Assembly: GCA_017853885.1 (NCBI GenBank)
Contig: JAFMIR010000008.1
Coordinates: 1-64,000 of the forward strand
Length of the DNA: 64,000 nucleotides
Direction of reading: 5' to 3'
Source of the DNA: Prosthecobacter sp.
GTDB lineage: Bacteria > Verrucomicrobiota > Verrucomicrobiia > Verrucomicrobiales > Verrucomicrobiaceae
Position 1 is the stretch's first letter. Each line of letters starts with the position of its first letter. This document shows positions 15,201 to 52,078 of this stretch, piece after piece. A model generated the notes under the pieces. The model saw only the letters and a program-made list of their open reading frames with translations. It had not been told where the DNA came from and searched no databases. The translations under genes and the position numbers were made by a program.

Positions 15201-17652
15201 CGCCGCACCGGACATCTTTTTCATTTCGCCGGATGGCACGAAAAAAATGCTCTACACCGGCTTCAGCACCGGCAACCAGCAGCTCCGCGTGAACGGCCTG
15301 CGCTGGGGCATGGACGGCTGGGTGTATTGCGCCGCGGGTGCGCATCACGGCGGCTACAACAAAGGCACGCAAATCGAGTGCAAGATCACCGGCGATAAGA
15401 TCGACCTTGGCAGCCGGGATTTCCGCTTCAAGCCGGACACCGGCGAGTTCGATCCGCAGACCGGCCCTTCGCAGTTCGGCCGCGCCCGCGATGACTGGGG
15501 CCAATGGTTCGGCGTGCAGAACAGTTTCCCGCTCTGGCACTACGTCCTGCAGGATCACTACCTACGCCGCAATCCGCACGTCATCCCTCCGGACCCGATC
15601 CATCAGCTCTTCCCGCGGAATCCGCCCGTGTATCCCGCCAGCAGCATGGAGAAGCGCTTCCACAGCTTCGACCAGGCCGGGCGCTTCACCAGCGCCTGCG
15701 GCATCGAGGTGTATCGCGATGTGAAGCTCTTCAACGACAGCAAAACGCACGCCTTCACCTGCGAGCCCTTCCACAACGTCGTGCAGCATCACCTCCTCGA
15801 AGACGAAGGCGTCACCTTCAAAGCCGTGCGCGATCCCGCCGAGTCCAAGATGGACTTCCTCGCCAGCGAAGACCGCTGGTGCCGCCCCGTCATGGTCCGC
15901 ACCGGCCCGGATGGCGCTTTGTGGATCGCCGACATGTATCGCTACATGATCGAGCACCCGCAGTGGCTGCCGCAGAACGGCAAAGAGGAGCTTCTGCCGC
16001 ATTACCGCGAAGGAGACGACAAGGGGCGGATTTGGCGAGTGGTGTCTGACTTCATGATAAAGGCCGAGAAGCACAAGGATGACGGCGGAGAGATCAAATT
16101 CACCAAATGGACCGAAAGGCGCAAAGGTTGGTCGAATGAGCTCAATGGCTGGCTCAGGGACAAAGCTCAGATGCTGACCTCACAAGGCGAAGAGATTGCG
16201 AATCAGGCGCATGGTGATGCCGCCATCGCTCAACTCACATGGACAGCGTTGCAGAAAGGCAAGTTAACGAATGAGATGTGCCTCAAGCTTCTGGAGCTCA
16301 AATCTCCACGTGTTCGCGAACAAGCCCTGAAAATGACCGAAAAGCTCGAATGGAAGGTCAACGAAGCGTCCGCACTCCAAAAAGCATTCACGAACCTCGT
16401 GAACGACAAGGACGCCAAAGTGCGCCTTCAGCTAGCCTGCACGCTGGGTGAATTGAAGTTCGACTGGGCAGGAGATTTGCTCGCGGAGTTGCTGGATGCC
16501 GCTCCTGCGGATTCTCCGCTGCAAGGCGCGGCTTTGAGTTCGGTGTTACCGCATCTGGAGAGAGTTTGTACCGCTTTTCCGGAAGGGGGAGAGCCGGAGA
16601 ACAACAAAGCCATCGGAATGCTCTTCCGCTGTGCTTTGGCGACAAAAAACGAAAAGGCTATTTCGGCTCTGCTCTCACAGGTTGAGGCCAAAATGCACTT
16701 TGAGGAGCTTCTGGCCGTTTTGGATGAGAAAAACCTCTCGCTGGCCGCTTTCGCGAAACAGGTCACGGATGCCAAGGCGCGTGAAGCGGTCGAAAAAATG
16801 GCCGCGAGGCTGCAACAGGCAGCCGACTCCATTCAAACGGCTCCGACGATGGAATCGCTGGCCTTGCTGGCCTCGGATCGCGAGCATCGGGAACGGGTGA
16901 AGGCGCTCCTGCCGGAGCTTTGGGCGAAAAAGGGCAACGCAGAGGTGCTGCGGCTTGTCTCGAAGCTGCAACCGCAGGGCGGCGAGCAGTTTTTGCTCGA
17001 AGGCTGGGACCAGCGCACACCGGTGCTGCGCGTGCAGATCCTCGAAACACTGCTCTCGAACGACGCATGGACGCTGGCGCTGCTGAAACGGCCCGAAGCC
17101 AAATCCGCCGACGCGGCGACGCGGGCGCGGCTGATGAAGCATCCGAAGAAAAACATCGCCAGCCTCGCGGAGAAAGTCTTCGCGGACTCCACGAGCGCCA
17201 ATCGGGCGGCGGTGGTGGAGAAGTTCAAACCAGCGCTGAAGCTGCAAGGCGATGCAGCACGCGGGAAGACCGTTTTCGCGAGTGTGTGCATCAGTTGCCA
17301 CAAACTCGACGGCGTGGGCCTCGAACTCGGCCCGGACCTGCGCAGCGTGGCGCAGCACGACGCCGAAAAGCTCCTCAACTCCATCCTCGACCCCAGCGCC
17401 ATCATCGAGCCCGGCTTCATGGCCTACCACTGCACCCTGAAGAGCGGCGAGCAGCTCTACGGCGTCATCGCCACCGAAACGAGTGCGAGCTTGACGCTGA
17501 AAATGGCCGGGAACATCACAAAATCATTCCTGCGCAGCGATGTTACGTCGTTAAAGAGCGCTGGCATTTCTTTGATGCCAGAAGGGCTCGAAGCCACCAT
17601 GAATGCGCAGTCAATGTCTGATCTAATTGCTTACTTGAAGCAGTCTAGGTAA
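12226..17652 (+). CDS. giant exported ceramidase-like / LamG / PVC dehydrogenase / cytochrome c fusion
   Basis: A secreted 1808-residue protein (signal peptide MKHALLALFFFSGLTASAA) with at least five parts. Residues 25-440 resemble the neutral ceramidase N-terminal domain, with SATHTHSAP at about 105-113 supplying candidate metal ligands. Two LamG/concanavalin-like regions follow (about 540-700 and 720-870). Residues about 905-1290 are the PVC-type membrane-bound dehydrogenase propeller (LVAAEPVVLDPVAFDWDEQGRLW). Helical HEAT-like repeats occupy about 1350-1640. A C-terminal haem-binding domain carries CISCH at 1688-1692. Each module is known in Planctomycetes/Verrucomicrobia; the combined substrate (probably a glycan or lipid-linked sugar oxidised outside the cytoplasm) is inference. 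Confidence 0.85.
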   Translation: MKHALLALFFFSGLTASAATFRAGVATVDVSPTEFPRIIAGGFLEGRGEKLADKLFVRSFVLDDGKMKIAFAIVDTCMMEQSLIDEAKGIAAKQCGIPVDRMMVSATHTHSAPAAMGCLGTRKDTVYAKFLTPKIAEAIVTANAALQPARIGWGSFDDWEHTHNRRWIRLPGKEVVDPFGQPTGRANMHPGYLSKDVVGPSGPVDPQLSVIALQTLDGKPLGVLANYSQHYFGTGPISADYFGLFCKHLAAKLGQQGDGNGPFVCAMSQGTSGDQMWMDYGAEKKTITIDTYASEVADSAMKALQTVKYVDHAPLGMIEKTLELKYRVPDEKRLAWARPIAAKIDNDVPKSKEEVYAREALILHERQKTSVKLQAIRIGDLSIATLPNEVYAITGLKLREWAPFKMHFNIELANGAEGYIPPYNQHELGGYTTWPARTAGLEEGAEGLIFSALFASCFELAGKPKQLPSHENGQYAEEVLRSEPAKYARLENEGGCQLAERTPRPSGAVMADGGFATYLPGPGSGLGYGDESALKSSAFSGPHQINRCIHIAGGHLGTFLKNTERKLINGNWQTVEITPPTSIALWFWLGHESGASDRTGELINALGVSLKAHQDAQHRVRLMLGSEVTKEELFADDWHFAVLIRDGENVRVHLDGSEKPVLIGKAGKTEDEVLFGKGLEGRLDEITIWKRAIEPSLITKLWNISKVGEENAQRAVRRTERKKRMQAHSSILLKAHENWSASMRFKNTKANNVSAVTAYLISRGPKGDHQAPGDHLGIGGSYKDSSPGRLFVFNGNAASQIVRGTTVIEPGTWNDVKLERLGPRVKVTLNGKVEIDAELPVTAPGAKELFFGKRCDDFAPLEGAFEKVEVAGLEKPASPAPAPKIELASQPLSPEESAKKWHVRDGYRIELVAAEPVVLDPVAFDWDEQGRLWVIEMADYPLGMDGNGKVGGRVVRLEDTDRDGRYDKRHVIVSDLSYPTGILTWREGVIVTAAPDIFFISPDGTKKMLYTGFSTGNQQLRVNGLRWGMDGWVYCAAGAHHGGYNKGTQIECKITGDKIDLGSRDFRFKPDTGEFDPQTGPSQFGRARDDWGQWFGVQNSFPLWHYVLQDHYLRRNPHVIPPDPIHQLFPRNPPVYPASSMEKRFHSFDQAGRFTSACGIEVYRDVKLFNDSKTHAFTCEPFHNVVQHHLLEDEGVTFKAVRDPAESKMDFLASEDRWCRPVMVRTGPDGALWIADMYRYMIEHPQWLPQNGKEELLPHYREGDDKGRIWRVVSDFMIKAEKHKDDGGEIKFTKWTERRKGWSNELNGWLRDKAQMLTSQGEEIANQAHGDAAIAQLTWTALQKGKLTNEMCLKLLELKSPRVREQALKMTEKLEWKVNEASALQKAFTNLVNDKDAKVRLQLACTLGELKFDWAGDLLAELLDAAPADSPLQGAALSSVLPHLERVCTAFPEGGEPENNKAIGMLFRCALATKNEKAISALLSQVEAKMHFEELLAVLDEKNLSLAAFAKQVTDAKAREAVEKMAARLQQAADSIQTAPTMESLALLASDREHRERVKALLPELWAKKGNAEVLRLVSKLQPQGGEQFLLEGWDQRTPVLRVQILETLLSNDAWTLALLKRPEAKSADAATRARLMKHPKKNIASLAEKVFADSTSANRAAVVEKFKPALKLQGDAARGKTVFASVCISCHKLDGVGLELGPDLRSVAQHDAEKLLNSILDPSAIIEPGFMAYHCTLKSGEQLYGVIATETSASLTLKMAGNITKSFLRSDVTSLKSAGISLMPEGLEATMNAQSMSDLIAYLKQSR

Positions 17653-17795
17653 TTGTTTTGAGCTCATTTGATAAAATTTTCTGAATGCGAAAATCTTTAT
17701 CCAGCCTCATGCGTTCTCGAGAATAACCCTCAGTAGTATAGACGCACTAAACCATGCGATGAACATGGCTAATTTGTTACGCTGAGACGAAAAAA

Positions 17796-18827
17796 TTAGA
17801 TGGTGCCGAAAATTGTTCTACCCGTGCTAAGTAGATCGTTGCAGGCTTCCTTCATTCGGTCGCAAAGACCTTGTTCACCCTTTTTCAGGTAAGATCGGGG
17901 ATCATAGGCTTTTTTGTCACCGATCTCACCATCGATTTTGAGAACGCCGTCATAGTTTTTCATCACATGTCCCACAATCGGACGCGTGAAAGCATATTGC
18001 GTATCGGTATCAATATTCATCTTCACAACGCCGTAGCCTAGCGTTTCACGAATCTCTTCGAGAGGAGTGCCAGAACCGCCGTGGAAAACGAGGTCCATCT
18101 CAGCAGATACACCGTGCTTATCCATCACCGCTTTCTGGCCATCGCGAAGGATGGTAGGCTTGAGCTTGACAGCGCCAGGCTTGTAGGAGCCGTGAACGTT
18201 GCCAAAGGTGGCGGCGAACATGAAGCGTCCGATACCGTTGAGAGCTTCGTAAACAGCAACCATGTCCTCAGGGGTGGTGTAAAGCTTATCATTGGCCACG
18301 CCAGAAGTGTCGTGGCCATCCTCCTCACCACCTACCACGCCAGCCTCTACCTCAAGGATGATGTCGAGTAAGGCGCATTGCTTGAGGAGTTCTTTGGAGG
18401 CCTTGATGTTCTCATCAAGGCTGAGTTCGGATCCGTCAAACATGTGGGAGTTGAACAGATTGCCCTTGCCAGCATCGCGGCGAGCTTTCGTGGCAGCAAG
18501 AAGAGGCTTCAGGAACTTCTCGACGTTCTTGGGGTGGCAGTGATCGGTGTGAAGAGCAACAAATATGTCGTATTTAGCAGCGAGGATGTGGACGGCCTCG
18601 GCCAGCACTATGGCTCCGAGGGCCATGTCTTTGACGGCGGTGCCAGAAGCAAACTCTCCACCACCTGTCGAAACCTGAATAATGCCGTCAGATTTGCTCT
18701 CAGCGAAGGCTTTCAATGCCCCATTGATAGTGGGCAAAGAAGTAACGTTGATGGCTGGATAGGCATAACCACCCTTTTGGGCGGCGTCCAGCATGGCACG
18801 ATATTGAGCAGGATTGGCGACGGGCAT
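17796..18827 (-). CDS. fba: class II fructose-bisphosphate aldolase
   Basis: Zinc-dependent aldolase that splits fructose 1,6-bisphosphate into two triose phosphates in glycolysis and reverses this in gluconeogenesis. The metal-site region HTDHCHPKN and the EVEAGVVGGEEDGHD segment are class II signatures, and HGGSGTPLEEIRE with VVKMNIDTDTQYAF forms the phosphate site. The length (343 residues) fits the longer class IIA type, like E. coli FbaA. It is a single gene. Just upstream of its start are three tandem 7-base units GATTCT(G/A/T) at 18835-18855, significance unknown. Confidence 0.95.
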   Translation of the reverse strand: MPVANPAQYRAMLDAAQKGGYAYPAINVTSLPTINGALKAFAESKSDGIIQVSTGGGEFASGTAVKDMALGAIVLAEAVHILAAKYDIFVALHTDHCHPKNVEKFLKPLLAATKARRDAGKGNLFNSHMFDGSELSLDENIKASKELLKQCALLDIILEVEAGVVGGEEDGHDTSGVANDKLYTTPEDMVAVYEALNGIGRFMFAATFGNVHGSYKPGAVKLKPTILRDGQKAVMDKHGVSAEMDLVFHGGSGTPLEEIRETLGYGVVKMNIDTDTQYAFTRPIVGHVMKNYDGVLKIDGEIGDKKAYDPRSYLKKGEQGLCDRMKEACNDLLSTGRTIFGTI

Positions 18828-18954
18828 CTTCTTAGATTCTGGATTCTAGATTCTTGGTTCCTGTTTGGGTAGCGATTGATTTCATGAAACAGCAACCATC
18901 ATTCATGAATCTAACATTTTCAAAGCAATGAGCGGGCCAGCAATGAAGTGTCTT

Positions 18955-20793
18955 TTAGTTAAACCCACGGATTGACTGGACCCGAACACGCCGAGTGCTG
19001 TGAACAGCATCTCCTGGGAGGTCGACTTCATCGCCGGCAACGCGACCAATGAGAGCTTTGGCTTTTTCGGAAAGGTAAGAAATGATGTTTTTATCCAAGT
19101 CACTGTCCCAAGCGCCCAAAATGCTCAGGGTCTCAGTTGAGCCGTCGCCCAGATCGGCTAATTCGACAACTGTTCCGATACCAATTTTGTCCGTAGGCAT
19201 GCCAGCAAAGTCAGTCCCATGTGCGTGGCGAATTTCGCGCTCATATTTGCCCTGCATGCGAAGCAGCACAGCCTGCTGATCACGGGCCGCCTTGTAACCA
19301 CCGTTTTCGCGCAAGTCCCCTTCGGCACGAGCAATTTGAATCTCACGTTTATTCTCGGGGATCTGGACATTCACAAGGTCTTCAAGTTCTTTCTTTTTAC
19401 GCTCAAGAGATTCCCACGAAACGATTAGTCGATCATCCTGACGTGAAGCCATATTGTCGGCCATCATCGACTCCATTTCGGGTCGCGATTTAATAATGCG
19501 TGCCATAAGGGAGCGGCGAGTGAGGTCATCGAAAGCGGAATTCCCTAGGATGCGTTTTGCAAGAAGGCGAATGTCTTCCTCCTCAGCATCAGCCACCATT
19601 TCACCCAAAAGAAAAGCATCGTCAGAAAGAAGGCTTTGCAGACGGCCGGTACGTTTAGGACCACCTTCCATTTGATCATGATCAATCACATCTAAAATTG
19701 CGTGCCCCAGGTCAATGTCGAAGCAGGACTCGGCAAGCCCTTTGCGCTCTCGAGCCATCCAGATAAGCAGGTCGGCGCTGAGATTGCGATTGCGGAGGCA
19801 TTTCTTAAGTGCATCGGCAAGCACGTCAAGCTCGTCATTGTCATTCAGCACGATGGCAATTTCAGCCACAGCCTTACCGCCGCTGCGGGTGAGTTGCTGT
19901 AGGATCTCCGGCACCCAAGCGCGGTTGGGGAAAGCCTCAGGAAATGACCGGTAAACACGAGCTAAAGCCGAGGAAGCGAGCGTCTTGATGGCGTCAGCCA
20001 AGTTCGTGCGAGTCTCTGAAACGAGATCAGCCAGCTTCATGCTTCCGAGAGGTGCTGAACCGCCGATGTGCTCAATAAGTTCGTCTCGCGCGAGGAGAAG
20101 TTGCAGGCTCTCCTTCAGGTGAAGCTTAAAAGCCTTCCGAACGGTGTCGGAAAGATCTTGAAAAACAGGTATCAGCTCGATCTTGGCGTCGCCAAACAGG
20201 TCAATGTCCTTCGCAATACTGGCGAGTGCAGCAAGCTTTGCTTTCATATCACGAGATGCAAGGAAGCCCTTGACCATGACATCCGCAGGCTTCTCGGCTT
20301 GGTCGCGAAGGACGAGGTTTTCAGCTCGTTTAGCAGGCACCACGATGTGACGATGAGCTTTGAGGGCTTTTTTGGCCGCCTCCCACCAGCGTTTGTAATC
20401 TGCTTCGGGAACAATTTTGCCCTTAAGAAGAGATTCAAGACCATCAAGGGAGAGCGAATTCCCGCTGCTCTTCAGAGCGAGCTCGACCAAGGCCGGTGCG
20501 CTGTCTTTTGCCAAAGCCTTCAGGCCATCCAAATCTGTGAGACGGCGAGCCAGCAGACTTTCAGGCGGCAGGATTTCGAGGGAATTCGCGGCAAAGGCCA
20601 GCTTCATGCTATGGCCAAGCTTTCCTTCGAAATCGATACCAATACGATCTCCCAAAAGGTCCCATTCGGTGATTCGGCCTGTGCCCCAGCTTTTGTGCTG
20701 GACAGTAGTTCCGGGTTCGAGTTTCGAGACTTTTTCTGCATCTGCGCCGGAGAGCTTGCCGGCGGCCACAAGATTTTGCACCTCTGGATTCAT
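18955..20793 (-). CDS. GreA/GreB-family factor with long N-terminal extension
   Basis: The start is set at MNPEVQNLV (20793), giving 612 residues; the first 62 of the longer ORF do not look coding. The C-terminal 160 residues are a full GreA-type transcript cleavage factor: a coiled coil whose tip reads ARAEGDLRENGGYKAARDQQ, with the acidic residues that reach the RNA polymerase active site, then an FKBP-like domain (IGIGTVVELADLGDGS). The N-terminal 450 residues are mostly helical, beginning with a small barrel-like segment (VQHKSWGTGRITEWDLLGDRIGI), the GreA-associated extension seen in PVC bacteria. Its role beyond rescuing backtracked polymerase is unknown. Confidence 0.85.
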   Translation of the reverse strand: MNPEVQNLVAAGKLSGADAEKVSKLEPGTTVQHKSWGTGRITEWDLLGDRIGIDFEGKLGHSMKLAFAANSLEILPPESLLARRLTDLDGLKALAKDSAPALVELALKSSGNSLSLDGLESLLKGKIVPEADYKRWWEAAKKALKAHRHIVVPAKRAENLVLRDQAEKPADVMVKGFLASRDMKAKLAALASIAKDIDLFGDAKIELIPVFQDLSDTVRKAFKLHLKESLQLLLARDELIEHIGGSAPLGSMKLADLVSETRTNLADAIKTLASSALARVYRSFPEAFPNRAWVPEILQQLTRSGGKAVAEIAIVLNDNDELDVLADALKKCLRNRNLSADLLIWMARERKGLAESCFDIDLGHAILDVIDHDQMEGGPKRTGRLQSLLSDDAFLLGEMVADAEEEDIRLLAKRILGNSAFDDLTRRSLMARIIKSRPEMESMMADNMASRQDDRLIVSWESLERKKKELEDLVNVQIPENKREIQIARAEGDLRENGGYKAARDQQAVLLRMQGKYEREIRHAHGTDFAGMPTDKIGIGTVVELADLGDGSTETLSILGAWDSDLDKNIISYLSEKAKALIGRVAGDEVDLPGDAVHSTRRVRVQSIRGFN

Positions 20794-38663: not shown

Positions 38664-38843
38664 AGTTCCGTTTGGCAGCCTCATCCCAAATCCAGCTGCG
38701 ACACTTAAACCGCCATCAGCAGATCGATTTGAACGTTATATAGGGAGGAGCAAAGCCAATAATCCATCCGCTTATAGCAGGCTTGTTGCTGGCGAGCCAT
38801 TGAACCACCAATAATTCTCAAAGAAAAAACGTGTCATCCTATT

Positions 38844-39311
38844 TTGCCATTTTGCTACTTCACCCTCAAGGCCTCCAGAACGGCGGTCAGGCTGCGAAAA
38901 CTCGTTCAGAAAGGGTTCAAAATCAGGCCAGTAACGTTGGGGCAGCACCTGCGGTCTCGCAGGCTGGTCTTGAAATTGACCCAAGCTCAGGCTGCTGAAC
39001 AATTGAACACTTTGCGTGAACATTATGAGCGCTGGGAACGTGACGAGGTGGCTCCGACAGCCTCCTTTTGGCCTCGCCTCATCGGGTTCCTTGGCTCTTA
39101 TCCAATGGCCGTTCAGTCCCCGGCTGACCAGATCGTGATGGCTCGAAGGATCATGGGGTTGAGCCAGTTTGCCTTTGGTCGGAGGATTCAGGTCATCGCG
39201 AAAAATGTCCGCGAATGGGAGCACGGCGTGGCGAAACCCTCCCCGGCCATGCTCGCAAAAGTGCAGCAACTGGTGACTGACACTCCGGTTGTCGGACTGG
39301 CGCCCGTGTGA
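38844..39311 (+). CDS. two-domain helix-turn-helix (XRE-like) protein
   Basis: A 155-residue protein with two XRE-type helix-turn-helix regions: LGQHLRSRRLVLKLTQAQAAEQLN with a YERWERDEVAPT third helix, then ARRIMGLSQFAFGRRIQ with VREWEHGVAKPS. The start codon is uncertain; the ORF track uses TTG 38844 and no ATG lies upstream of the first domain. It lies at the left edge of the accessory island, overlapped by the long ORF that follows. A regulatory role is likely; its target is unknown. Confidence 0.6.
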   Translation: MPFCYFTLKASRTAVRLRKLVQKGFKIRPVTLGQHLRSRRLVLKLTQAQAAEQLNTLREHYERWERDEVAPTASFWPRLIGFLGSYPMAVQSPADQIVMARRIMGLSQFAFGRRIQVIAKNVREWEHGVAKPSPAMLAKVQQLVTDTPVVGLAPV

Positions 39312-42821: not shown

Positions 42822-44555
42822 ATGCAGAGCATTCTGGATCGAAAAGCACCGTTTCAAACATCCCAGGCTCCTGAGCCGGTGATTTCAGCGTTCGAGGGCT
42901 TCAAAGCACCGACATCCAACACCACCTACACGCCGAACCAGTTCTTCGATGTCGTCATCCCGCACTTCTCGCGGGGAGTCGTGCGCATTGTGGCCTACCT
43001 GCTGCGCAAAACGCTCGGCTGGTGTGATGCGAATGGGAATCCGCAGGAGGAGCAAATCGAGGTGACCTACTCGGAACTGGAGCGAAAGGCCGGCGTGAGC
43101 CGTGACATGATCCGTGGCGCGCTGGATGACGCGCTGACGGGTCACTTGTTCGAATGCGTGACCGAAGGCCGAGCGAAGCACGCGCACGATGCCGGGCAAT
43201 CCGCCTGCTACCAGCTCCGATGGTCATCCATGCCCTACACGACGCGATTGGAGCAATTTGAGGGCTTCTTTGAAGGCGAAGGCAATCGCACCGACATCCC
43301 GAACGAGTTCTTTGACGTGCTCATTCCCCATGAGCCGCTTTCCGTGATCAAAGTCGTCGGAGCGATCATCCGCCACAGCATCGGCTTTCAGGCGAAACAC
43401 GGCCGCCGTCGCCAGCAGGTGGCGCTGTCCTATCAGCAGATCGAGAACTACGCTCGCTTCGGTAGCCGCTCCGATCTCGCCAAGGCCATTCGCATCGCGA
43501 TGGAGAAGAACTACATCGTGCGGCTGGAGAGCGGTGTGTTCAGCCATGAGGCCACCGAGCGGCGGCGTGCCGTGTATGCGCTTCGCTGGTGCGATTTTCC
43601 GAACGGTCAGAAAAACGAACCAGCCGTCAATCAGTCAGAAATCCAGACCAGCATCAGTCCGATTTCCGCACCAGCGCATCAGTCAGAAATCCGCACCAAC
43701 ATTAAAACGAAACCAGGAAATGAAACTGGAAACAGCCCTGCGGCTGACACGCAGTTGAGAGACCGGCTTCTCGGCTTCGGCTTCAGCGAAAAGACCATCG
43801 CGAAGCTGATGCGGGAGCACAGCCGCGAGGAGATCGAGCAGCAGATCATCTGGATGCCAGACCGTGCACCAGCACGCAGTCCAGCGGGGCTGCTACGTCG
43901 ATCCATCGAGCAGCGGTGGCCCGCGCCGATGAAACTTCGGTCAGCCGAAGTCACTAGCGTGACGCAGGCCGGATGGGACTTCGCGCGATGCTTCTACGCG
44001 GCCTATGGCGGCAATCGAGGCGAGCCTGTGAATGATCCATCGCCACGCGAGGCGCAGACTGCGGAGAGCTTTGTGCAGCGATTGATCCGAGCCACGAGGG
44101 AGGAGGGCCACGCTGCCGAGTGGGGCCGTGAGCTGGGCAGCCTCGCACGCGAGCAGCGGCATCCGTTTCCATCGCTCACGCTTGCCATCCGCCAGCTTGG
44201 CGATGCCTTCCTCGTCCAGCGGGAAAAGCAGCGCCTCCAGGTGCAGCTCGCCAGCATCACGCAGAGCCGTGAGCAGCACGAGCAGCGCTTCCGCGATGAC
44301 TGGCTCCGCTGGCTTGCGGCCAAGGAGTCCGAGATGCGTGAGACGCGTCCCGAGGACTATCAGCGCTTCATCGCGCAGCGGGAAAGCGAGCGGTCAGAAC
44401 TCGCCGCCGATCCGAAGCCATGGTCGCGTCGCGTGCTGGAGCACTTCGACACGGACAACGCCCGCCTCGGTGCCTTCCGCCAGTGCTTCGGCCTCCCGCA
44501 CTTCTGGCAGTGGGACGCCGCCTTTAACAGCCAATCATTCAAACCAAACCCATGA
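42822..44555 (+). CDS. plasmid-type replication protein with duplicated winged-helix domains
   Basis: A 577-residue protein. Residues about 27-132 and 146-265 are two copies of one roughly 105-residue domain: TPNQFFDVVIP...VRIVAYLLRKTLGW and IPNEFFDVLIP...IKVVGAIIRHSIGF, each ending in Y.LRW. This is the phage-O/plasmid RepO-like winged-helix fold that binds an origin. The rest is basic and helical (EQHEQRFRDDWLRWLAAKE near the C-terminus) with no helicase motif. It is followed by parA with an ATGA overlap. The gene contains an inverted copy of the origin repeat at 43934-43954. Confidence 0.7.
   Translation: MQSILDRKAPFQTSQAPEPVISAFEGFKAPTSNTTYTPNQFFDVVIPHFSRGVVRIVAYLLRKTLGWCDANGNPQEEQIEVTYSELERKAGVSRDMIRGALDDALTGHLFECVTEGRAKHAHDAGQSACYQLRWSSMPYTTRLEQFEGFFEGEGNRTDIPNEFFDVLIPHEPLSVIKVVGAIIRHSIGFQAKHGRRRQQVALSYQQIENYARFGSRSDLAKAIRIAMEKNYIVRLESGVFSHEATERRRAVYALRWCDFPNGQKNEPAVNQSEIQTSISPISAPAHQSEIRTNIKTKPGNETGNSPAADTQLRDRLLGFGFSEKTIAKLMREHSREEIEQQIIWMPDRAPARSPAGLLRRSIEQRWPAPMKLRSAEVTSVTQAGWDFARCFYAAYGGNRGEPVNDPSPREAQTAESFVQRLIRATREEGHAAEWGRELGSLAREQRHPFPSLTLAIRQLGDAFLVQREKQRLQVQLASITQSREQHEQRFRDDWLRWLAAKESEMRETRPEDYQRFIAQRESERSELAADPKPWSRRVLEHFDTDNARLGAFRQCFGLPHFWQWDAAFNSQSFKPNP
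43934..43954 (+). repeat. inverted copy of the origin palindrome
   Basis: Reads ACTTCGGTCAGCCGAAGTCAC, sharing ACTTCGG and CCGAAGTCAC with the repeat at 42535-42555, but with the central CTGA inverted to TCAG. It lies inside the rep coding sequence. Confidence 0.5.
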
Positions 44556-45388
44556 ACATCATCACCGTCATCAATGCCAAGGGAGGTTGTGGTAAAAGCA
44601 CCATCGCCATGAACCTCGCCAGCGGCCTCGCACGTCACGGGCATCGGGTCCTGCTCATGGATCTCGATCCGCAGGCGCAGGTCACGCAATGGCTCGCCGC
44701 AGGGGATGGACTCACGCCGGAGGGCACGCTCGTGGCCGCTCTCACGCGCCAGCAATCGCTCTCCGAAGTCATCCAGCCCACCGGCTTTGAAAACATGTCC
44801 TTCGTCGCCAGTGCCGACGGCCTGGAGGACCTCGGGCGTGAGATCAGCCAGACGGAGGGCTATCCCTCCATGCTCACGCAATTGATCGCCGAGGAGCACA
44901 TCGCCGACCGCTTTGACTTCCTCGTCATCGACTCGCCGAACCAAATCTCGCCGATCATGGAGAACGCCATCTTTCCAGCGGACGCCTTCATCGTGCCGTT
45001 TGAAAGCACGAAGGCCGTGAAGAGCTACGCCAGCATCTACAAGCTGCTCGTGAAGCTCCGCCCGACCGCCGACTTCCGCATGCTGCATGTGCTGAGCAAT
45101 CTCACACGCCTGCCAGGCCTGCGAAAGCGCGTGCTCGCCCTGCTTGCGGATGACGGCATCCCATCGGCACGCAGCGAGATACGCTCCTGCGGATGGATGG
45201 CGCAGGTGGACGAGAATGGAGGCAGCATCTTCCACTATCGTCCGCTCTCCAAAGGAGCGCAGGACATGGCCGCCCTCGTCGAAGAGGTGCGGGACTTATT
45301 CACTAACGGGCCGCAGGCCCACGCGGAGACCGCCGCCGCATCGCCCGACCACGCGATGAGTGCGGAAGTCACCGCCCCAACAGCATGA
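44552..45388 (+). CDS. parA: ParA-family partition ATPase
   Basis: A Walker-type ParA ATPase of 278 residues. The deviant Walker A is NAKGGCGKSTIAMNLASGLA, the switch I region is LLMDLDPQAQVTQWLA, and Walker B is FLVIDSPNQ. These proteins move DNA on the nucleoid by ATP-driven gradients together with ParB bound to a centromere site. The start overlaps the rep stop and the end overlaps the parB start, each by four bases, indicating a tightly coupled operon. The C-terminus is a proline/alanine/threonine-rich tail. Confidence 0.9.
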   Translation: MNIITVINAKGGCGKSTIAMNLASGLARHGHRVLLMDLDPQAQVTQWLAAGDGLTPEGTLVAALTRQQSLSEVIQPTGFENMSFVASADGLEDLGREISQTEGYPSMLTQLIAEEHIADRFDFLVIDSPNQISPIMENAIFPADAFIVPFESTKAVKSYASIYKLLVKLRPTADFRMLHVLSNLTRLPGLRKRVLALLADDGIPSARSEIRSCGWMAQVDENGGSIFHYRPLSKGAQDMAALVEEVRDLFTNGPQAHAETAAASPDHAMSAEVTAPTA

Positions 45389-46233
45389 CCAAACTACCCG
45401 ATGGCAAAAGCCGTCTCGATCTCGTGAAGTCCGGCCTCACCGGCGGACTGCCAAAACGAGGCCGCTTCATTGTCAGCATCGACCGCCTTCTCGAAGACCC
45501 GGAGAACGAACGAAAAATCTTCCACAACATGGACGACATGATCGAGTCCGTGCGTCGTCACGGCATCATCGAGCCCATCACCGTCACCCAGGAGGGCGAC
45601 CGCTACCGCATCCTCACCGGCCACCGCCGCTTCCGCGCCGCCAAGGCCGTCGGCCTCACCGAGCTGGAGGTGCTCGTGCGCGAGCCGGATGATCAGATCA
45701 CCCGCCGCTTCAAAAGTCTCATCTCCAACATCCAGCGGGAGAACATCCCCGCCGTCGAGTTGGCGGAGACGCTTCACAGCCTGCTCAGCTCCGGTGCCGC
45801 CGCGTCTCAGCGTGAACTCGCCCGGCAGATAGGGAAGAGCGAGCAATGGATGTCCGGCATGCTCCGCGTGCTGGAACTGCCCGCACGCCTTCAGGAGGAA
45901 CTGCGTAGCACACCCGGCATCGGCTACGAGATGGCCCAGCGCATCGCGCAGGTGGGGGACTCGCAGTTTCAGGAGCAGCTCGTCACCGCCGCCGTGGCAG
46001 GGGAGAGCGTGGGCCGCATTCGCGAGCGCATCGCCAGCTTCCGCACCACCCAGGGCTCCACGTCGTCATCCCGACCCAAGACACGCACCAGCCAGCTCAT
46101 CCAGCTCACGCATCGAGAGGGGAGTTGCGTTGCCAGCCTCCGTGCCAAACGCGAACCCGGAGCCCAGGAAGCCATGCTGGAGGCCCTCCGACAACTCGCC
46201 GAGCAGGTGAGAGCGGACGACAGCCTGCGGTGA
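45385..46233 (+). CDS. parB: ParB-family partition protein
   Basis: A 282-residue ParB. The N-terminal ParB/Srx nuclease-like domain shows ESVRRHGIIEPITV, then YRILTGHRRFRAAKAVGL, with the conserved GERRxR-like segment in the form GHRRFRA. A helix-turn-helix region follows (ASQRELARQIGKSEQWMSGMLRVLELP). The C-terminal region is charged. ParB would bind centromere-like sites next to parA; the repeat at 42535 and 43934 is one candidate. Confidence 0.88.
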   Translation: MTKLPDGKSRLDLVKSGLTGGLPKRGRFIVSIDRLLEDPENERKIFHNMDDMIESVRRHGIIEPITVTQEGDRYRILTGHRRFRAAKAVGLTELEVLVREPDDQITRRFKSLISNIQRENIPAVELAETLHSLLSSGAAASQRELARQIGKSEQWMSGMLRVLELPARLQEELRSTPGIGYEMAQRIAQVGDSQFQEQLVTAAVAGESVGRIRERIASFRTTQGSTSSSRPKTRTSQLIQLTHREGSCVASLRAKREPGAQEAMLEALRQLAEQVRADDSLR

Positions 46234-46294: not shown

Positions 46295-46591
46295 ATGAGT
46301 TCCACCGTCGAACACATCCGCCAAGAGATCGACCAGCTCGCCCCTGATGAGATTCGGGAGCTTTTCACCGATCTCCAGCAGGAGTATCCGTTGCGGTTGC
46401 TTCAGGTCGAAGAGACTGCGCCAGACCTTTCCGACCTCAGTGAGGCTGACAAGGTGAAGCTCGAAGCCCTCCGCCAGGACATCCAGGCTGCTGCCGACTC
46501 CTTGGATCGTGGTGAAGGCATCCAGATCGATTGGGATGCCAAGCTCGCACGCCGACATCAGGCATACGCGGCACGTCAGGCCGCTAGCTAA
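46295..46591 (+). CDS. putative antitoxin (addiction-module protein)
   Basis: A 98-residue, acidic, mostly helical protein with a polar N-terminus (HIRQEIDQLAPDEIRELFTDLQQEY) and an acidic middle, ending in RRHQAYAARQAAS. The shape and position, five bases upstream of a RelE/ParE-type toxin, indicate the antitoxin of a type II toxin-antitoxin module. The segment GEGIQIDWDAKLARRHQ fits the usual antitoxin C-terminus that wraps the toxin. Confidence 0.65.
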   Translation: MSSTVEHIRQEIDQLAPDEIRELFTDLQQEYPLRLLQVEETAPDLSDLSEADKVKLEALRQDIQAAADSLDRGEGIQIDWDAKLARRHQAYAARQAAS

Positions 46592-46596
46592 AGCCC

Positions 46597-46893
46597 ATGT
46601 CAAACGTCACCTACTCAGAGCTGGCTGACCGCGACCTCGACGACATCTGGGATTACATCGCCCAGGACAGTGTTTTTCAGGCTGACAGGCTTTGGCAGCG
46701 CATGCGCGACAAGCTCGAATACCTCGCCAAGTGGCAGACCGTCGGGTGGCCACGCCCGGAACTCTCCAAAGGCTGCCGCAGCTATCCCTTCGGCAAATAC
46801 TGCTTCTACTTCCGGTCTTCTGACTCCGGCATCGAGGTGCTCAGGATTCTGCATTCCGCCCGCGATCTCGATCAGATCACCTTCCCTAAGTAA
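46597..46893 (+). CDS. RelE/ParE-family toxin
   Basis: A 98-residue toxin. SELADRDLDDIWDYIAQDS, LEYLAKWQTVGWPRPELSKGCRSYPFGKYCFYFR and IEVLRILHSARDLDQI follow the ParE/RelE fold: an opening helix, then antiparallel strands, with the VLRILHSARD segment being characteristic of ParE. ParE toxins usually inhibit DNA gyrase, RelE toxins cleave mRNA; ParE is the closer match. It lies five bases after the antitoxin, with a strong terminator following at 46936. Confidence 0.8.
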   Translation: MSNVTYSELADRDLDDIWDYIAQDSVFQADRLWQRMRDKLEYLAKWQTVGWPRPELSKGCRSYPFGKYCFYFRSSDSGIEVLRILHSARDLDQITFPK

Positions 46894-46959: not shown

Positions 46960-47026
46960 GCTTTTCAGACACCGTAGCGGCGATTGCCAATCGTCGAGCC
47001 AACCCTCAAAGACACCGTCAAAACTA

Positions 47027-47038
47027 CGGCTGACCGAA
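47027..47038 (+). repeat. third copy of the CGGCTGACCGAA 12-mer
   Basis: An exact match to the core of the repeat at 42539-42550, here flanked by ACTA and CTCGG rather than ACTT and GTCAC. Confidence 0.4.
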
Positions 47039-47160
47039 CTCGGACCTCAAGGACATCGACTGTCCGAAAAGCCTTGTTTGAGGCTATGAAGATGTCCTTG
47101 AGTCGGAAAAACAATATTCTGCGACACGCTTTTCCCCGGCCATTTCCGCTCTCCCGTCAT

Positions 47161-47489
47161 CCACGAGGCCCTACATCCACCCCTATTTACATGGTATGTA
47201 GGGGTGCGCGAAAAAATCGCGGCGAGTGCTATCGCACCGACAACGGTTTCAAGGCTTCACTGAGCCGCGAATCGCCGCCAGGCCTTGTCACGGGTGCCCC
47301 CACGTGTTCGGGCTGAACGCCCGACTTCACGCGGTTTCCTACGGCGACAAGGACTTGATCGACCTGCGGATAAAGGTCATGGCCAGCACCGGGCTACCCG
47401 CCCTCGGCCAATGACCAACCGCGTGAAGTCGGCCGCTCCGGCCAGCCGGCTGAAAAGCCGGACTGCCCTCGCCCTTCACACGTGGGGGC
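47161..47489. other. highly structured non-coding element, possible ncRNA or recombination site
   Basis: Perfect long-range arms GCCCCCACGTGT/ACACGTGGGGGC (47296-47307 with 47478-47489) and GACTTCACGCGGTT/AACCGCGTGAAGTC (47323-47336 with 47417-47430) enclose GGTCATGGCC/GGCCAATGACC (47375-47384 with 47406-47416). Local hairpins include TCGGGC-TGAAC-GCCCGA, CGGG-CTA-CCCG and CCGGCT-GAAA-AGCCGG, the last closed by a GNRA-type tetraloop. Further left, CCCTACAT/ATGTAGGG and CACCCCTA/TAGGGGTG offer alternative pairings, and GCGGCGA/TCGCCGC closes another helix. Nothing here reads as protein. Function unknown; RNA, replication terminus or site-specific recombination site are all possible. Confidence 0.55.
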
Positions 47490-47586
47490 CACGACGGGGG
47501 GACTACTATGCCTAGCGGAAGACGAGTGACCCATGTTAACTAAGTCTACGACAATGCGTCACACACAGCGCTCCAATAGAGCCACA

Positions 47587-47625
47587 TTGACTCACCCAGT
47601 CACTCATTTAGTCACATGAGCAATA
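47587..47625 (+). promoter_or_regulatory. candidate control region of the three-gene cassette
   Basis: TTGACT (47587-47592) is followed by two direct repeats AGTCAC (47598 and 47610, 12 bases apart) with CTCAT...ATGAG inverted around the second. A TTGACT-like -35 exists but no clear -10 follows. This may be an operator or just a coincidence of short repeats. Confidence 0.2.
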
Positions 47626-47710
47626 GTGAAAAACTGCCGATTCCCTTCATAATCAAAGCCTACGGCAGGCTGTGAATAACTGGCACGGTCTATGCCTAGA
47701 ATTGAGCAGT

Positions 47711-48814
47711 GTGACAAAACTGACATTTTATCCCATCGGACGAGCTGACTCGTATCTCATAGAAGTTGGCCACAAGTTGATTCTCTGCGACTACGCCAAC
47801 ATGGGGGGCGAAAAGGCGTGCGACCTCGCTAAATCTATCAAGGAAGACATGGGCTGGCCAAAACGAAAGAACATCGACGTAGTGGCAATCACCCATCTCG
47901 ACAATGATCATGTGAAGGGAGCTTCGGATTTCTTTTGGTTTGAAGCCTTTTCTAGTTATCAAAGCGATGAGAGGGTTAAGATCGACGAACTCTGGGTTCC
48001 TGCTGCGGTCATCACAGAGACGGCGCTTGATGAAACCGACGCCAAGCTGATCCGAGCAGAAGCCCGACACCGACTCAGAGCTGGCAACGGTATCAAGGTG
48101 TTCTCGGCTCCCGATATGCTTGATGCTTGGTTCGCACTGGAAAAGATCGATCCTGCCGACCGACGACACTGCATTGTAAACGCAGGTGGTCCTATCGACA
48201 CGTTCGATCTCGAACGTGACGGGGTTTCATTCTTCCCCCACTCCCCATTCGCACAGCGAGAAAATGGAAACCTTGTTGACCGCAACGCCGATTCTCTTGT
48301 CCAACAGGCTACCTTCAGAGTTGGAGGCAAAGACTTCTACTTGTTGATGACCGCTGACGTGACGCACACTGAACTCGATAGGATAGTTGAGGTAACCGAA
48401 GACCACGAAAACGACTCGAAGCTTGATTGGCACATCCTGAAGGTTCCCCATCACTGTAGCTATAAGGCGCTGGCCGACGACAAAGGGAGCCCAAAGACCA
48501 CGCCGACACCGCAAGTTACACGCCTTTTGAATCATGGTAAGAGCGGTTCCATAATGGTCATCACAAGCGGCCCAGTCCCGAGCGGTTTATCGGAGGAAGG
48601 AGCAATGCCTCCACACCCTGAGGCACTGGCGTGCTACGAGGAATGGAAAACGAAATTGAATGGAAGGATTGTAGTCACGATGTCCAACCCCAATGATTCA
48701 GCTCCATTGAGGACAATCATTGATATTGATGCGTTCGGCCCGAAGCTCCGCACCAACTACTCTTCGTCTGGTGCAGCAGTGATCACAGCTACTGTCTCTC
48801 CGCGTCATGGCTGA
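47711..48814 (+). CDS. ComEC-like metallo-beta-lactamase-fold hydrolase
   Basis: The ORF track starts at GTG 47672; GTG 47711 (VTKLTFYPIGRADSYLI) begins at the natural first strand, giving 367 residues. The metal motif is THLDNDHVKGAS (H62, D64, D66, H67), and ADVTHTEL and WHILKVPHHCS match the second half of the ComEC/Rec2-type MBL fold. No membrane helices are present, so it is a soluble relative. It could hydrolyse a nucleic acid or phosphodiester; this is not shown. The C-terminus ends in glycine (VSPRHG), and its stop overlaps the next start by eight bases. The family occurs beside E1/E2/JAB genes. Confidence 0.75.
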   Translation: MTKLTFYPIGRADSYLIEVGHKLILCDYANMGGEKACDLAKSIKEDMGWPKRKNIDVVAITHLDNDHVKGASDFFWFEAFSSYQSDERVKIDELWVPAAVITETALDETDAKLIRAEARHRLRAGNGIKVFSAPDMLDAWFALEKIDPADRRHCIVNAGGPIDTFDLERDGVSFFPHSPFAQRENGNLVDRNADSLVQQATFRVGGKDFYLLMTADVTHTELDRIVEVTEDHENDSKLDWHILKVPHHCSYKALADDKGSPKTTPTPQVTRLLNHGKSGSIMVITSGPVPSGLSEEGAMPPHPEALACYEEWKTKLNGRIVVTMSNPNDSAPLRTIIDIDAFGPKLRTNYSSSGAAVITATVSPRHG

Positions 48815-51125
48815 TCTCAGCCCAGATCTGCGACATCGTTGTGATGAAACCTTCGGAGCTGTTGTTGCCGCGAATCTGTTGCGATTCCCGCGCGCAATTG
48901 AGGTAGTCTCATACCTCACGATGGCAGATCGTGGTCCATTTGTTCGTTTTGTTGAGGCAAGAAGATTGCCATCCCAGCCCGAGCGCGAAGCTATCATCGT
49001 CGAGTTAGCTCCCGAACTTGGAACCGAACGGGTGGTAGACATCCACTACACCGAATTCTTCGCCTTAGTCTTTGATGAACGTGACGAGCGCTATCCACGT
49101 GCGTTAGCCATCCGTGAAAACTTTCCTCGCCCTATTCACCTCAACTTCGAGGTAAGTGAGTTTTCGAGCTGCGCTTCGCTTTGCCTATACGATCAGCCTT
49201 GGGGAGACATCAAGCTCACTTGGACACCAAGACAATTTCTGAACCGCATTGGTGAGTGGTTGACGAAGGCGAGTCAAGGAGCACTGCATGCACCGAACCA
49301 AGCTTTGGAGTGCTTCATGGTTTTCTCAGGGATCACGCTAGTGATGCCTCACGCGTTAATGCAGGCGGTTTCGAACCGGCCTTTGGTTGCCTTGAACCTC
49401 CAGCCAATATCACGCCCTGGGGAGAGTTGGATGGTATTTCGATCCCTTTACAATCAAAATCAACCCGATCCAAAAGCAGATGGATACAGCGTCATCACTC
49501 AATTTAAATGCCCACCTGTAACTCACGGCTTGATCAAAGCGTGTCCAACGAACTTAGGCGAACTGGACGAACTTTTCAGGGCTGCAGGATGGAGCTTAAT
49601 CAATGAATTCTCTGAGAGAATCAAAGGGGATCCTGGATTGATCAACACGGCAAGTCGCGGAGATGCCAGAATGATCATCATGCTAGCGGTTCCCATGAGG
49701 AGAGAAGACGAAAGTGAACCTGAGCGAACGGATACTTGGGCCTTCCAGATGACACACACTCTTGGTGAGTTTGCCGAAGCGGTCGGCTTGGTAGCCCGAG
49801 CCCCAGGTGGTGCACAATACCTACCGCTTGTGGGACAGGCAAAGCCTGAAGTCGTCGCACCCGCGTTGGCACAGAGTAGGATCATACCAATGCGAGTGCT
49901 TGAATCAATAGATCGAGCAAAAGCCGCGAACTTCACCGGTGAAACCTCACACTACGACGGCAGAGTTATAGCAGTCGGCGCAGGAGCATTGGGGGCACAA
50001 ATAGTGCTAAATCTTGCAAGGGGTGGTTTTGGCTTTTGGACTATAGTGGACGAAGATATTGTTCTCCCTCACAATATAGTTCGTCATTTTGCCCCTTCAG
50101 ATTGGATTGGTTGCTCGAAATCGGCAGCCCTTCACGAAGTCGTGAGCGGGCTTTATGACCAGCCCGAGTTTCACAGATACATTCATGCAAATGTCCTGAG
50201 CGCGACTCCTGATCAAAGAGAAGCACTCAACGAAGCAGCATCCAAAGCTGACCACATCTTTGATTTTTCTGCGTCGGTGAGTGTTGCTCGCTATCTTTCG
50301 GCGATGGACTGCGTTGCGCGACGTTCTTGTGCGTTCATAACTGCGTCTGGGAATGACCTGATCGTAATGAGTGAGGATGTGCAGCGAACCGTCAAGCTGG
50401 ACTGGTTAGAAATGGAGTTCTATGCAGCGCTAATTGCAGACGAAGATCTCTCTGCATCCGTAAGTGGTTCCGCAACAAAGGTTAACTATGGCCTTGGTTG
50501 CCGAGATCGTAGCGTAGTCCTTTCTCAAGATACCGTGGGTATGTATGCCGGTATAGCAAGCCGAGGTTTCCGACAGATCATCAACTGCGACAGCGCCAGC
50601 CTGAAGCTATATCAAATCGAAACACAGACGGGCTCAGTAAGCTGTCGTAGCATTAATGTTGAAAAGCCATTTGTTCACGTTGCTGGTGGCTGGGAGATAC
50701 AATACTCACGCAAAGTTGCTGAATCGATTCAATTGCTAAGACAATCCAAGCTGCCAAATGAGACTGGCGGGGTTCTTCTCGGAACTTGGGACGTCTCGCG
50801 CAAGCGTTGCTATGTGTATCACGCATTGCCAGCCCCAAGGGACAGCAACGAAGCACCAGATTATTTTGAACGCGGGTGTGAGAGCCTTAGCGCAAATATT
50901 GAAGTTCATAGCCGTCGAACCAACGGCATGACCACATATGTTGGGGAGTGGCATAGTCATCCGCGTGGCGCGTCAACCCTACCTAGTTGCCTTGACGTTA
51001 ACGCTGCACTTTGGTTTCAATCGCAACTCCAAGATGACGGCCTGCCTTCGGTGATGTTCATCGTAGGTGACGATATGCGGCCTCGAATAGTATGTGCATT
51101 TTCGATTAACCACGCCACCTCCTGA
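48807..51125 (+). CDS. E2-E1-JAB triple-domain protein (ubiquitin-like conjugation/deconjugation)
   Basis: A 772-residue fusion. Residues about 1-170 resemble the bacterial E2 (UBC-like) domain, with SCASLCLYDQPW giving candidate catalytic cysteines C122 and C126. Residues about 385-620 are a ThiF/E1 domain: Rossmann GAGALGAQIVLNLARGGFG, then VDEDIV, NIVRH and a CSKSAAL lysine; GCRDRS may hold the E1 cysteine. Residues about 640-770 are an intact JAB/JAMM metalloprotease with ETGGVLLG, HSHP at 716-719 and SCLD at 727-730. The parts match the activation, transfer and removal steps of a ubiquitin-like pathway, but no ubiquitin-like protein was found. Confidence 0.8.
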   Translation: MADLSPDLRHRCDETFGAVVAANLLRFPRAIEVVSYLTMADRGPFVRFVEARRLPSQPEREAIIVELAPELGTERVVDIHYTEFFALVFDERDERYPRALAIRENFPRPIHLNFEVSEFSSCASLCLYDQPWGDIKLTWTPRQFLNRIGEWLTKASQGALHAPNQALECFMVFSGITLVMPHALMQAVSNRPLVALNLQPISRPGESWMVFRSLYNQNQPDPKADGYSVITQFKCPPVTHGLIKACPTNLGELDELFRAAGWSLINEFSERIKGDPGLINTASRGDARMIIMLAVPMRREDESEPERTDTWAFQMTHTLGEFAEAVGLVARAPGGAQYLPLVGQAKPEVVAPALAQSRIIPMRVLESIDRAKAANFTGETSHYDGRVIAVGAGALGAQIVLNLARGGFGFWTIVDEDIVLPHNIVRHFAPSDWIGCSKSAALHEVVSGLYDQPEFHRYIHANVLSATPDQREALNEAASKADHIFDFSASVSVARYLSAMDCVARRSCAFITASGNDLIVMSEDVQRTVKLDWLEMEFYAALIADEDLSASVSGSATKVNYGLGCRDRSVVLSQDTVGMYAGIASRGFRQIINCDSASLKLYQIETQTGSVSCRSINVEKPFVHVAGGWEIQYSRKVAESIQLLRQSKLPNETGGVLLGTWDVSRKRCYVYHALPAPRDSNEAPDYFERGCESLSANIEVHSRRTNGMTTYVGEWHSHPRGASTLPSCLDVNAALWFQSQLQDDGLPSVMFIVGDDMRPRIVCAFSINHATS

Positions 51126-51128
51126 CCT

Positions 51129-51878
51129 GTGCCATCCTTCACATTGCTCTCCGATTCCTATGAGCGAAAAGCTCGACTTACACCAATGCTAATCGCTTTG
51201 GCTCCGGGTTTGCTAGTTGCCCTGGCATTCACAGGAATCGAAGTTCACTGGCTTCAAAAATACTCTGGCGCTGCATTTATCTACGGCGTGCTCTCCCTTG
51301 TTTTGTGCTTCTACAGTCGACAAGCTGGACAGGCGGTAGAAGCTCGACTCAAAGCTAAGTGGAACGGCGTGATGCCATCAGTAGTCATTCTCAGACATCG
51401 AGATGATGTTCTTGATGCAATCACCAAAGCCAAGATCCACAAGGCAATGGCAAAGGTTGTAGCTGGAAGCAAGGCTCCAACAACAGAGCAAGAGATCCTG
51501 AATCCAACTGAGTGTGATCTCACTTATCGGGCGTGGTCTGAACATTTGCGTATCAGGGCCAGAGTGGATTCGTCCAAGTTCCCACATGTATTCAACGAGA
51601 ATACCCACTATGGCTTCATGCGGAATCTCCGTGGGTTGAAGCCCTTTGCTCTCATCGTGCTCATTGGATGTCTTGGTTTGTCTATTGGACTGTTTATGCT
51701 TGGTGGAAATGATTGGAATCGTATTACCCCGCCCGCTGGACTCTGTTGGGTAACTCTCGTTTCTCTTCTCCTGTTCTGGACATTTGCCGTGAACGATTCT
51801 CGGGTTGAGCGCGCTGCCTGGAATTATGCGAGACGACTGGTCGATGATTGCGTTCCTTTGCATCCAACGAAGACCTAA
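51129..51878 (+). CDS. four-helix membrane protein of the E2-E1-JAB cassette
   Basis: A 249-residue protein starting at GTG 51129, three bases after the upstream stop. Helices at about residues 18-36 and 44-62 form a pair, then a cytosolic domain of about 100 residues (KAHKAMAKVVAG, ECDLTYRAWSEHLRIRARVDSSKFPHVFNENTHYGFMRNLRGLKP) and a second pair at about 168-190 and 200-222. The conserved-looking domain suggests a known but unnamed family beside defence genes. Membrane effectors that leak cells on infection are common in phage defence, so an effector role is possible but unproven. Confidence 0.65.
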   Translation: MPSFTLLSDSYERKARLTPMLIALAPGLLVALAFTGIEVHWLQKYSGAAFIYGVLSLVLCFYSRQAGQAVEARLKAKWNGVMPSVVILRHRDDVLDAITKAKIHKAMAKVVAGSKAPTTEQEILNPTECDLTYRAWSEHLRIRARVDSSKFPHVFNENTHYGFMRNLRGLKPFALIVLIGCLGLSIGLFMLGGNDWNRITPPAGLCWVTLVSLLLFWTFAVNDSRVERAAWNYARRLVDDCVPLHPTKT

Positions 51879-52078
51879 CAGACGCCTTCATGCTATACTA
51901 ACTTCACCCTTCAGCCGTCGAGGCCAGTTGCCGTTACCCGCCTGGCTCGATCCAACAGACGTTTGCCGGGTGACTTTCCGGGCGGGCACCCATTTTGACG
52001 AGGGGGTGATCTCTGGCCCGGTTTTCATTCATGTTCCTTTCTGGAGCGGCGGCTGGCCTGGGCGGCGTGAACATAGCC

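Follow-up and report, generated by a model that had tools for sequence, protein, structure and literature searches.

A branched DNA hairpin upstream of coupling-protein and relaxase genes as a candidate transfer origin of mobilizable elements in Verrucomicrobia

The window analysed here is a 64,000-nucleotide stretch of a Prosthecobacter sp. contig, and it contains a large hairpin unit that forms part of a mobile element (Table 1). Strong matches to window positions 47165-47500 occur in 16 of 190 related genomes, all from the same family and with 81-99% identity, and the 17 such loci besides the window are termed the near group. The order of features in this group is that of the 577 aa protein, ParA, ParB, often a ParE-type toxin-antitoxin pair, the TGTCCTTGA repeats and the structured unit, followed by a variable slot and then by the gene for the 441 aa TraD/VirD4-like ATPase. 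The 577 aa protein, to judge from its sequence, is a possible replication initiator.

Table 1. Features of the hairpin locus and its neighbouring genes, in window coordinates
Feature	Position	Strand	Remarks
577 aa protein	42822..44555	+	conserved in backbone; without family match
ParA-family ATPase	44552..45388	+	backbone
ParB-family protein	45385..46233	+	backbone
Toxin-antitoxin pair	46295..46893	+	ParE-family toxin at 46597-46893; kept in many, not all loci
TGTCYTTKA repeat, copy 1	47006..47014	-	putative protein-binding repeat
TGTCCTTGA repeat, copy 2	47047..47055	-	
TGTCCTTGA repeat, copy 3	47093..47101	+	
Hairpin A, near-palindrome CCCCTATTTACATGGTATGTAGGGG	47180..47204	.	kept in most homologues
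Smaller hairpins (GCGCGAAAAAATCGCG; hpC ~47250-47287)	47206..47287	.	between hairpin A and core
Conserved structured core, candidate oriT	47293..47490	.	P1, P2, three-way junction and P5
P1 outer stem, left arm GCCCCCACGTGT	47296..47307	.	12 bp, perfect
P2 stem, left arm CGACTTCACGCGGTT	47322..47336	.	perfect 15-bp part of inner arm
Junction interior, P3 and P4 hairpins	47337..47416	.	enlarged in near group
P2 stem, right arm AACCGCGTGAAGTCG	47417..47431	.	pairs with 47322..47336
P5 hairpin CAGCCGGCTGAAAAGCCGGACTGC	47443..47466	.	A-U to U-A and C-G changes among homologues
P1 outer stem, right arm ACACGTGGGGGC	47478..47489	.	pairs with 47296..47307
Variable cargo slot	47500..51887	+	6A-MBL anti-phage system and 249 aa protein in window
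MBL protein of 6A-MBL, 380 aa	47672-48814	+	
cap2_3-like protein of 6A-MBL, 772 aa	48807-51125	+	
249 aa protein	51129-51878	+	without family match
Short TraD/VirD4-like coupling ATPase, 441 aa	52031..53356	+	conserved partner of site

Beyond the window the same contig encodes ArdC, a PF13814 protein, a DnaG-like primase, a coupling-protein-like ATPase of 1044 aa and, at ~84-85 kb, a serine recombinase (PF07508). PF13814 is the MobC relaxase superfamily, and the combination of a serine integrase, a VirD4 coupling protein and PF13814 defines a published class of mobilizable elements (PMC5357655). The window's element has the make-up of an integrative mobilizable element, namely a PF07508 integrase and a PF13814 relaxase with no match to PF03135 (VirB4) in its own genome (a draft, 94% complete), and because of this missing match it is taken to be mobilizable rather than self-transmissible. 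A tRNA search between 36 and 64 kb found none. A near-identical sequence of 37-44 bp, ATCCTATTTTGCCATTTTGCTACTT, lies at 38824-38860 of the window and at the left homology edge of several loci; sequences of this type also occur in L036 and L037, in the latter to the right of the coupling-protein gene, and may represent an attachment site or the repeated end of a gene. Beyond the window (L042), two adjacent minus-strand ORFs of 150 aa without family match (14590-15042 and 15086-15538) lie near the primase and are kept with the transfer genes in distant elements. The 1044 aa ATPase, a second and long form of coupling protein, is encoded at 16385-19519, close to the serine recombinase. Both the short and the long form of the coupling protein are encoded by several of the element-bearing genomes.

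In Verrucomicrobiaceae the hairpin site and the coupling-protein gene are separated by a slot in which defence genes are common. The window holds a complete 6A-MBL pair at 47672-51125 (NF058524 and NF058523, both above the NCBI cut-offs), and elsewhere the slot contains TIR and TPR-CHAT proteins (L036), a long pAgo (L029), a short Ago (L023), an AriA/OLD-like ATPase (L031), a PD-Lambda-2-like system (L034) or an E1-E2-like system (L022). Three slots are almost empty (L030, L035 and L037), and three further cargo loci gave no PADLOC match. The original prediction placed the hairpin element beside a defence cassette; the site does not stand there in isolation but forms part of a mobile element, whose neighbouring slot takes many alternative cargoes, this cassette among them. 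On one reading the site is itself the point at which cargo enters, as a folded, attC-like recombination site for the slot on its right. Near-group homology does end on the site side at ~47500, with variable defence cargo beyond. However, the site is equally conserved at distant loci that have little room for cargo before the coupling protein, the opposite side of the slot in the window yielded no second structured core, and the element's recombinase is of the serine type and lies ~37 kb away, so that cargo recombination is the least probable of the readings considered here and a very improbable one.

The structured core lies within a larger unit (46990-47500) and scored 143 bits in the window with the covariance model R1 (cmsearch). 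It had been described from the letters alone as a set of nested arms dense in pairing and devoid of coding potential, and these features were borne out. Inside the 12-bp outer stem lies an imperfect inner arm pair of 27 nt (47310-47336/47417-47443, 85% complementary), and a single-strand fold places a third helix, around GGTCATGGCC..GGCCAATGACC, inside the nested arms; the small internal hairpins are likewise present in the fold. The pairings suspected to the left of the element are also real, in that 47046-47057/47091-47102 is a perfect 12-bp inverted repeat that holds two TGTCCTTGA repeats. Homologues are separated by single-base indels, in keeping with a non-coding region. Folded as RNA, positions 47161-47489 reach -168.9 kcal/mol on the plus strand (z -8.6) and -186.1 kcal/mol on the minus strand (z -8.2), and in neither case did any of 100 dinucleotide shuffles fold as well; with DNA parameters the core gives z -7.8 (plus) and -10.4 (minus). 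The minus strand forms the more stable DNA fold in all 38 homologues compared, by a mean of 7.8 kcal/mol, although this consistency is partly inherited and the preference is for that reason supporting evidence only. In distant homologues the junction interior often reads CCTNCGGCTAYCGGG ... CACCAAA. Several loci (L120, L122, L128, L131, L133 and others) contain many small hairpins with CTATCG or CTACCG loops in core and flanks. On the minus strand these loops are C(GRTA)G, which resembles a known class of stable DNA tetraloops.

Comparison of homologues indicates that it is the pairing, rather than the sequence, that is kept. In an alignment of 33 cores, 32 of them distinct, 96.9% of the cells in the two main stems are paired, whereas slid versions of the same stems pair in just 38-51%. 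Changes on both sides of a pair were counted in 102 cells against 27.3 +/- 3.7 in shuffles, a comparison to be read with the caveat that kinship alone can exceed such shuffles without structure. P1 carries compensatory changes in L121 (CCCCAAAGGTT/AACCTTTGGGG), and the P2 arm runs from CGACTTCACGCG to CGACTATAAATG or CGACTTTTCTTG with the partner arm following each time, a direct sign of a pairing constraint. Over the first 13 pairs of P2 in 32 sequences, 408 of 416 pairs (98%) are Watson-Crick and 4 are wobble pairs on either strand. Neither of the two outcomes named beforehand as refuting the original prediction, a lack of covariation and shuffled sequences that pair equally well, was thus obtained.

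The scarcity of wobble pairs bears on the level at which the structure acts. G-U pairs make up 1.1% (plus strand) or 3.0% (minus strand) of the covarying core pairs, compared with 10.2% in an RNase P control from 30 genomes of the same class run through the same pipeline (Fisher 2e-19 and 1e-10, respectively; the cells are not independent and the effect size is the point). Structured RNAs pass through G-U intermediates and the element almost never does, which suggests that selection for pairing acts on DNA; the constraint is indicative of DNA folded as a single strand or as a cruciform rather than of RNA. By this measure the site lacks the G-U frequency expected of covarying pairs in a structured RNA, and the suggestion in the original prediction that it could be one has lost ground. 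Such an RNA would be a transcript of one strand acting in transfer or regulation, in the manner of the sgm-sRNA found beside the SGI1 oriT (PMC9299015), and the strong RNA folding energy would suit it, as would the weaker hpC region, where the plus strand shows 17 G-U against 5 A-C (the structure was drawn from the plus strand, which biases the count). Against it, besides the G-U deficit, the search found no sigma-70-like promoter within the element and no recognisable promoter or terminator; the right flank is variable cargo, which would leave a minus-strand transcript without a conserved promoter; and the Rfam 15 covariance models gave no match at gathering threshold and a single chance match (E 2.1). 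A structured RNA is therefore unlikely. Nor does the site classify with Frpo/ssi sequences, as the element has no promoter-like match and the P2 stem sequence changes freely between homologues.

The site is present as a single copy in its own genome, and homologues occur well beyond its family. Distant copies, reached stepwise from nearer ones, were found in two genomes from another family of the order, in several families of the class and in one genome of the phylum outside the class, and a 23-nt pattern searched against 84,980 species genomes returned Verrucomicrobia, including the isolate Brevifollis gellanilyticus NBRC 108608 and several Prosthecobacter MAGs. Two finds outside the phylum were set aside: a Bacteroidales sequence (L068) is a terminator-like hairpin that shares only the 23-nt pattern and was rejected as a homologue, and an Acidobacteriia sequence (L070) is near-identical to the Verrucomicrobia type and so likely comes from a misbinned contig. 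Weak short DNA matches in G009:C96, G031, G103, G165, G187 and G210 are chance. The search for viral homologues gave zero matches, and plasmid and phage collections yielded short chance matches only. No described family matches the element.

Some individual copies deserve mention. The G015 chromosome has a decayed copy of the element (L023), which matches ParB only in its C-terminal part and the coupling protein only over the first 121 aa, in a genome where the search found no close relaxase; its hairpin unit is ~99% identical to that of the window. A partial second copy of the hairpin unit, corresponding to window 47347-47488 with 82% identity, lies at L038:9954-10096 (G045:C548), ~22 kb from the complete copy on the same contig. 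Public MAGs labelled Akkermansia muciniphila (L061, L069, L071 and L053) also carry such elements, and the labels look unreliable, as genome grouping puts at least one of these genomes outside the window's family.

The short repeats accompany the site. Within 600 bp of the core, taken across all loci, the 9-bp TGTCYTTKA has 58 copies in 34 kb of sequence, compared with 23 in 438 kb elsewhere. This is a 32-fold enrichment, although kinship among the near loci means that the 58 copies are not independent. The repeat varies among loci in copy number and position; in distant loci the repeat stands at several different positions around the core, some of them inside P4 or P5. A protein-binding role is putative. 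Counts of a second motif, CACKACK, to the right of the core are noisy.

Transfer genes accompany the site. Where distant loci offer enough flank, the genes that come after the core, in its own orientation, are those for the short ATPase, PF13814 and in most cases the primase and RadC, with PF13814 preceding the ATPase in L121 and L122; at most distant loci ParAB and the 577 aa protein had no match near the site. The relaxase of L035 scores 64.2 bits against PF13814 (cut-off 25.3), and the window's own genome has a 70% identical copy of it. The relaxase alignment has invariant P184-D185, E207-x-D209 and K228, and this PD...ExD...K pattern agrees with the PD-(D/E)XK fold to which MOBC relaxases are assigned (PMC5714925; PMC12857230). 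An AlphaFold model of the relaxase was poor (pLDDT 44) and a PDB profile search with it gave no meaningful match. Among 68 genomes of the family, 13 have both a BLAST-detectable site and a close relaxase (PF13814 at E < 1e-80), 4 the site only, 1 the relaxase only and 50 neither (Fisher 1e-9).

The same linkage holds where the sequence has diverged. R1 found the site at six of six BLAST-negative loci (E 2e-19 to 5e-7), which were absent from its training set and whose relaxases are 35-51% identical, in each case upstream and on the same strand, and a blind R1 search of 241 genomes of the phylum returned four matches, all at coupling-protein/relaxase loci. In the genome outside the class the site found by R1 likewise adjoins the same operon. 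Starting instead from the 21 loci with the short coupling protein, 14 have the site upstream (11 within 1.5 kb and 3 farther away, in the window, G494 and G521), 3 are cut by contig ends and 4 lack it, whereas none of nine loci with the long paralogous coupling protein has the site within 1.5 kb. The four loci without a site, in two of which the gene is broken or partial, count against a transfer-origin role; no perfect inverted repeats were found upstream of the coupling-protein loci without a site.

Collectively these results show that TGTCYTTKA repeats, a palindromic hairpin and a ~200-nt branched hairpin form a conserved unit with pairing at the DNA level, and that this unit lies upstream of coupling-protein, relaxase and primase genes. 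An oriT is the simplest reading, because a folded DNA site with short repeats stands upstream of coupling-protein and relaxase genes, and we consider it probable that the site is the oriT of a family of integrative mobilizable elements in Verrucomicrobia with a MOBC-type (PF13814) relaxase and a VirD4/TraD-like coupling protein. Also against this assignment, the relaxase gene in the window's own copy is ~29 kb from the site, and neither an oriT nor a plasmid of the collection searched matches the site in sequence. The original prediction had allowed for a recombination or transfer site; the transfer half is the best supported of its readings, through the synteny with relaxase and coupling protein, the MOBC context and the DNA-type covariation, and cargo recombination is disfavoured. 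Its other suggestion, a replication terminus, found no support.

The main rival is a role in replication, as a vegetative origin or as a site of single-strand initiation, a primase-loading hairpin, used by the DnaG-like primase and the 577 aa protein of the near group. The primase belongs to the same gene cluster at distant loci and would fit this role equally well, the repeats resemble iterons, and in the window the genes for ParAB and the 577 aa protein stand upstream of the site. Yet it is the coupling protein and relaxase that persist at distant loci, where ParAB and the 577 aa protein mostly gave no match near the site, and PF13814 is assigned to relaxases; on balance a replication site is rather unlikely, though less so than an RNA. 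As MOBC relaxases can be multifunctional (PMC5714925), this rival partly overlaps with the preferred explanation, and a replication or primase-loading role may coexist with that of an oriT.

Were the site an oriT, the relaxosome would recognise the repeats and/or the folded strand. The recognised strand would most likely be the minus strand, as it folds better in every homologue. The hairpin would extrude in supercoiled DNA or re-form in the transferred strand, the nick site would presumably lie in an unpaired part of the hairpin, and the strand would be passed to the coupling protein and to a type IV secretion system supplied by another element. The candidate site is larger and more structured than oriTs usually are, a further point against the assignment. 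A bolder proposal, advanced tentatively and held to be less likely than the oriT assignment itself, is that the large branched hairpin, as folded single-stranded DNA, is the relaxosome signal of a new class of transfer or replication origin, read largely by its shape while the stem sequence drifts, with a slot that collects anti-phage systems near the start of transfer.

If the assignment is correct, this would be an unusually large, branched and shape-conserved oriT, and the first predicted one, with a searchable model, for widespread mobile elements of Verrucomicrobia, a phylum in which gene exchange, judged from the literature, is poorly known. A search of open papers found no transfer origin described for the phylum and this element family. 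The site is also an unusually clear case of covariation on DNA that is told from RNA by its wobble pairs, and the same test could be applied to other RNA-like conserved elements from genome scans. In addition, a slot for defence genes beside a probable transfer origin bears on how anti-phage systems spread.

The closest parallels are the oriTs of MOBC systems (pAD1 TraX; CloDF13 MobC), which also have a gene for a PD-(D/E)XK-type relaxase and a TraG/VirD4-like coupling gene alongside. A possible further likeness lies in the several short repeats at some distance from the candidate nick region: TraX, the MOBC relaxase that has been studied, binds several direct repeats located 70-120 bp from its nic (PMC12857230). 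Here too the cis site is located with the relaxase and coupling-protein genes, and the element is predicted to encode a PF13814 relaxase with the PD...ExD...K residues, but a ~200-nt branched, covarying hairpin is conserved across the class and no similar plasmid sequence was found. The pMV158 oriT (MOBV; MobM) is likewise built from hairpins, which extrude in supercoiled DNA and are changed on relaxase binding (PMC5863519); its inverted repeats, however, are short and mutually exclusive, in contrast to the one large nested structure here, and its relaxase is unrelated. Streptococcal IME class 8 has the same three signature genes (PMC5357655), whereas the present elements belong to another phylum, are larger and additionally carry ParAB, primase, ArdC, RadC and defence cargo. 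The SGI1 mobilization region resembles the site in that conserved non-coding DNA with inverted repeats adjoins its oriT and mobilization genes (PMC9299015), but there the essential element is an RNA (sgm-sRNA) and the relaxase is of the tyrosine-recombinase type, in contrast to the DNA-type conservation described here. Integron attC sites likewise act as folded single strands of DNA, prefer the bottom strand and show little conservation of sequence (PMC6393395, PMC2727003). The present site is set apart from them by outer stem ends of GCCCCCACGTG/CACGTGGGGGC rather than RYYYAAC/GTTRRRY and by the finding of a serine-type recombinase rather than a tyrosine IntI, and it is larger, branched, single-copy in each element and adjoins transfer genes.
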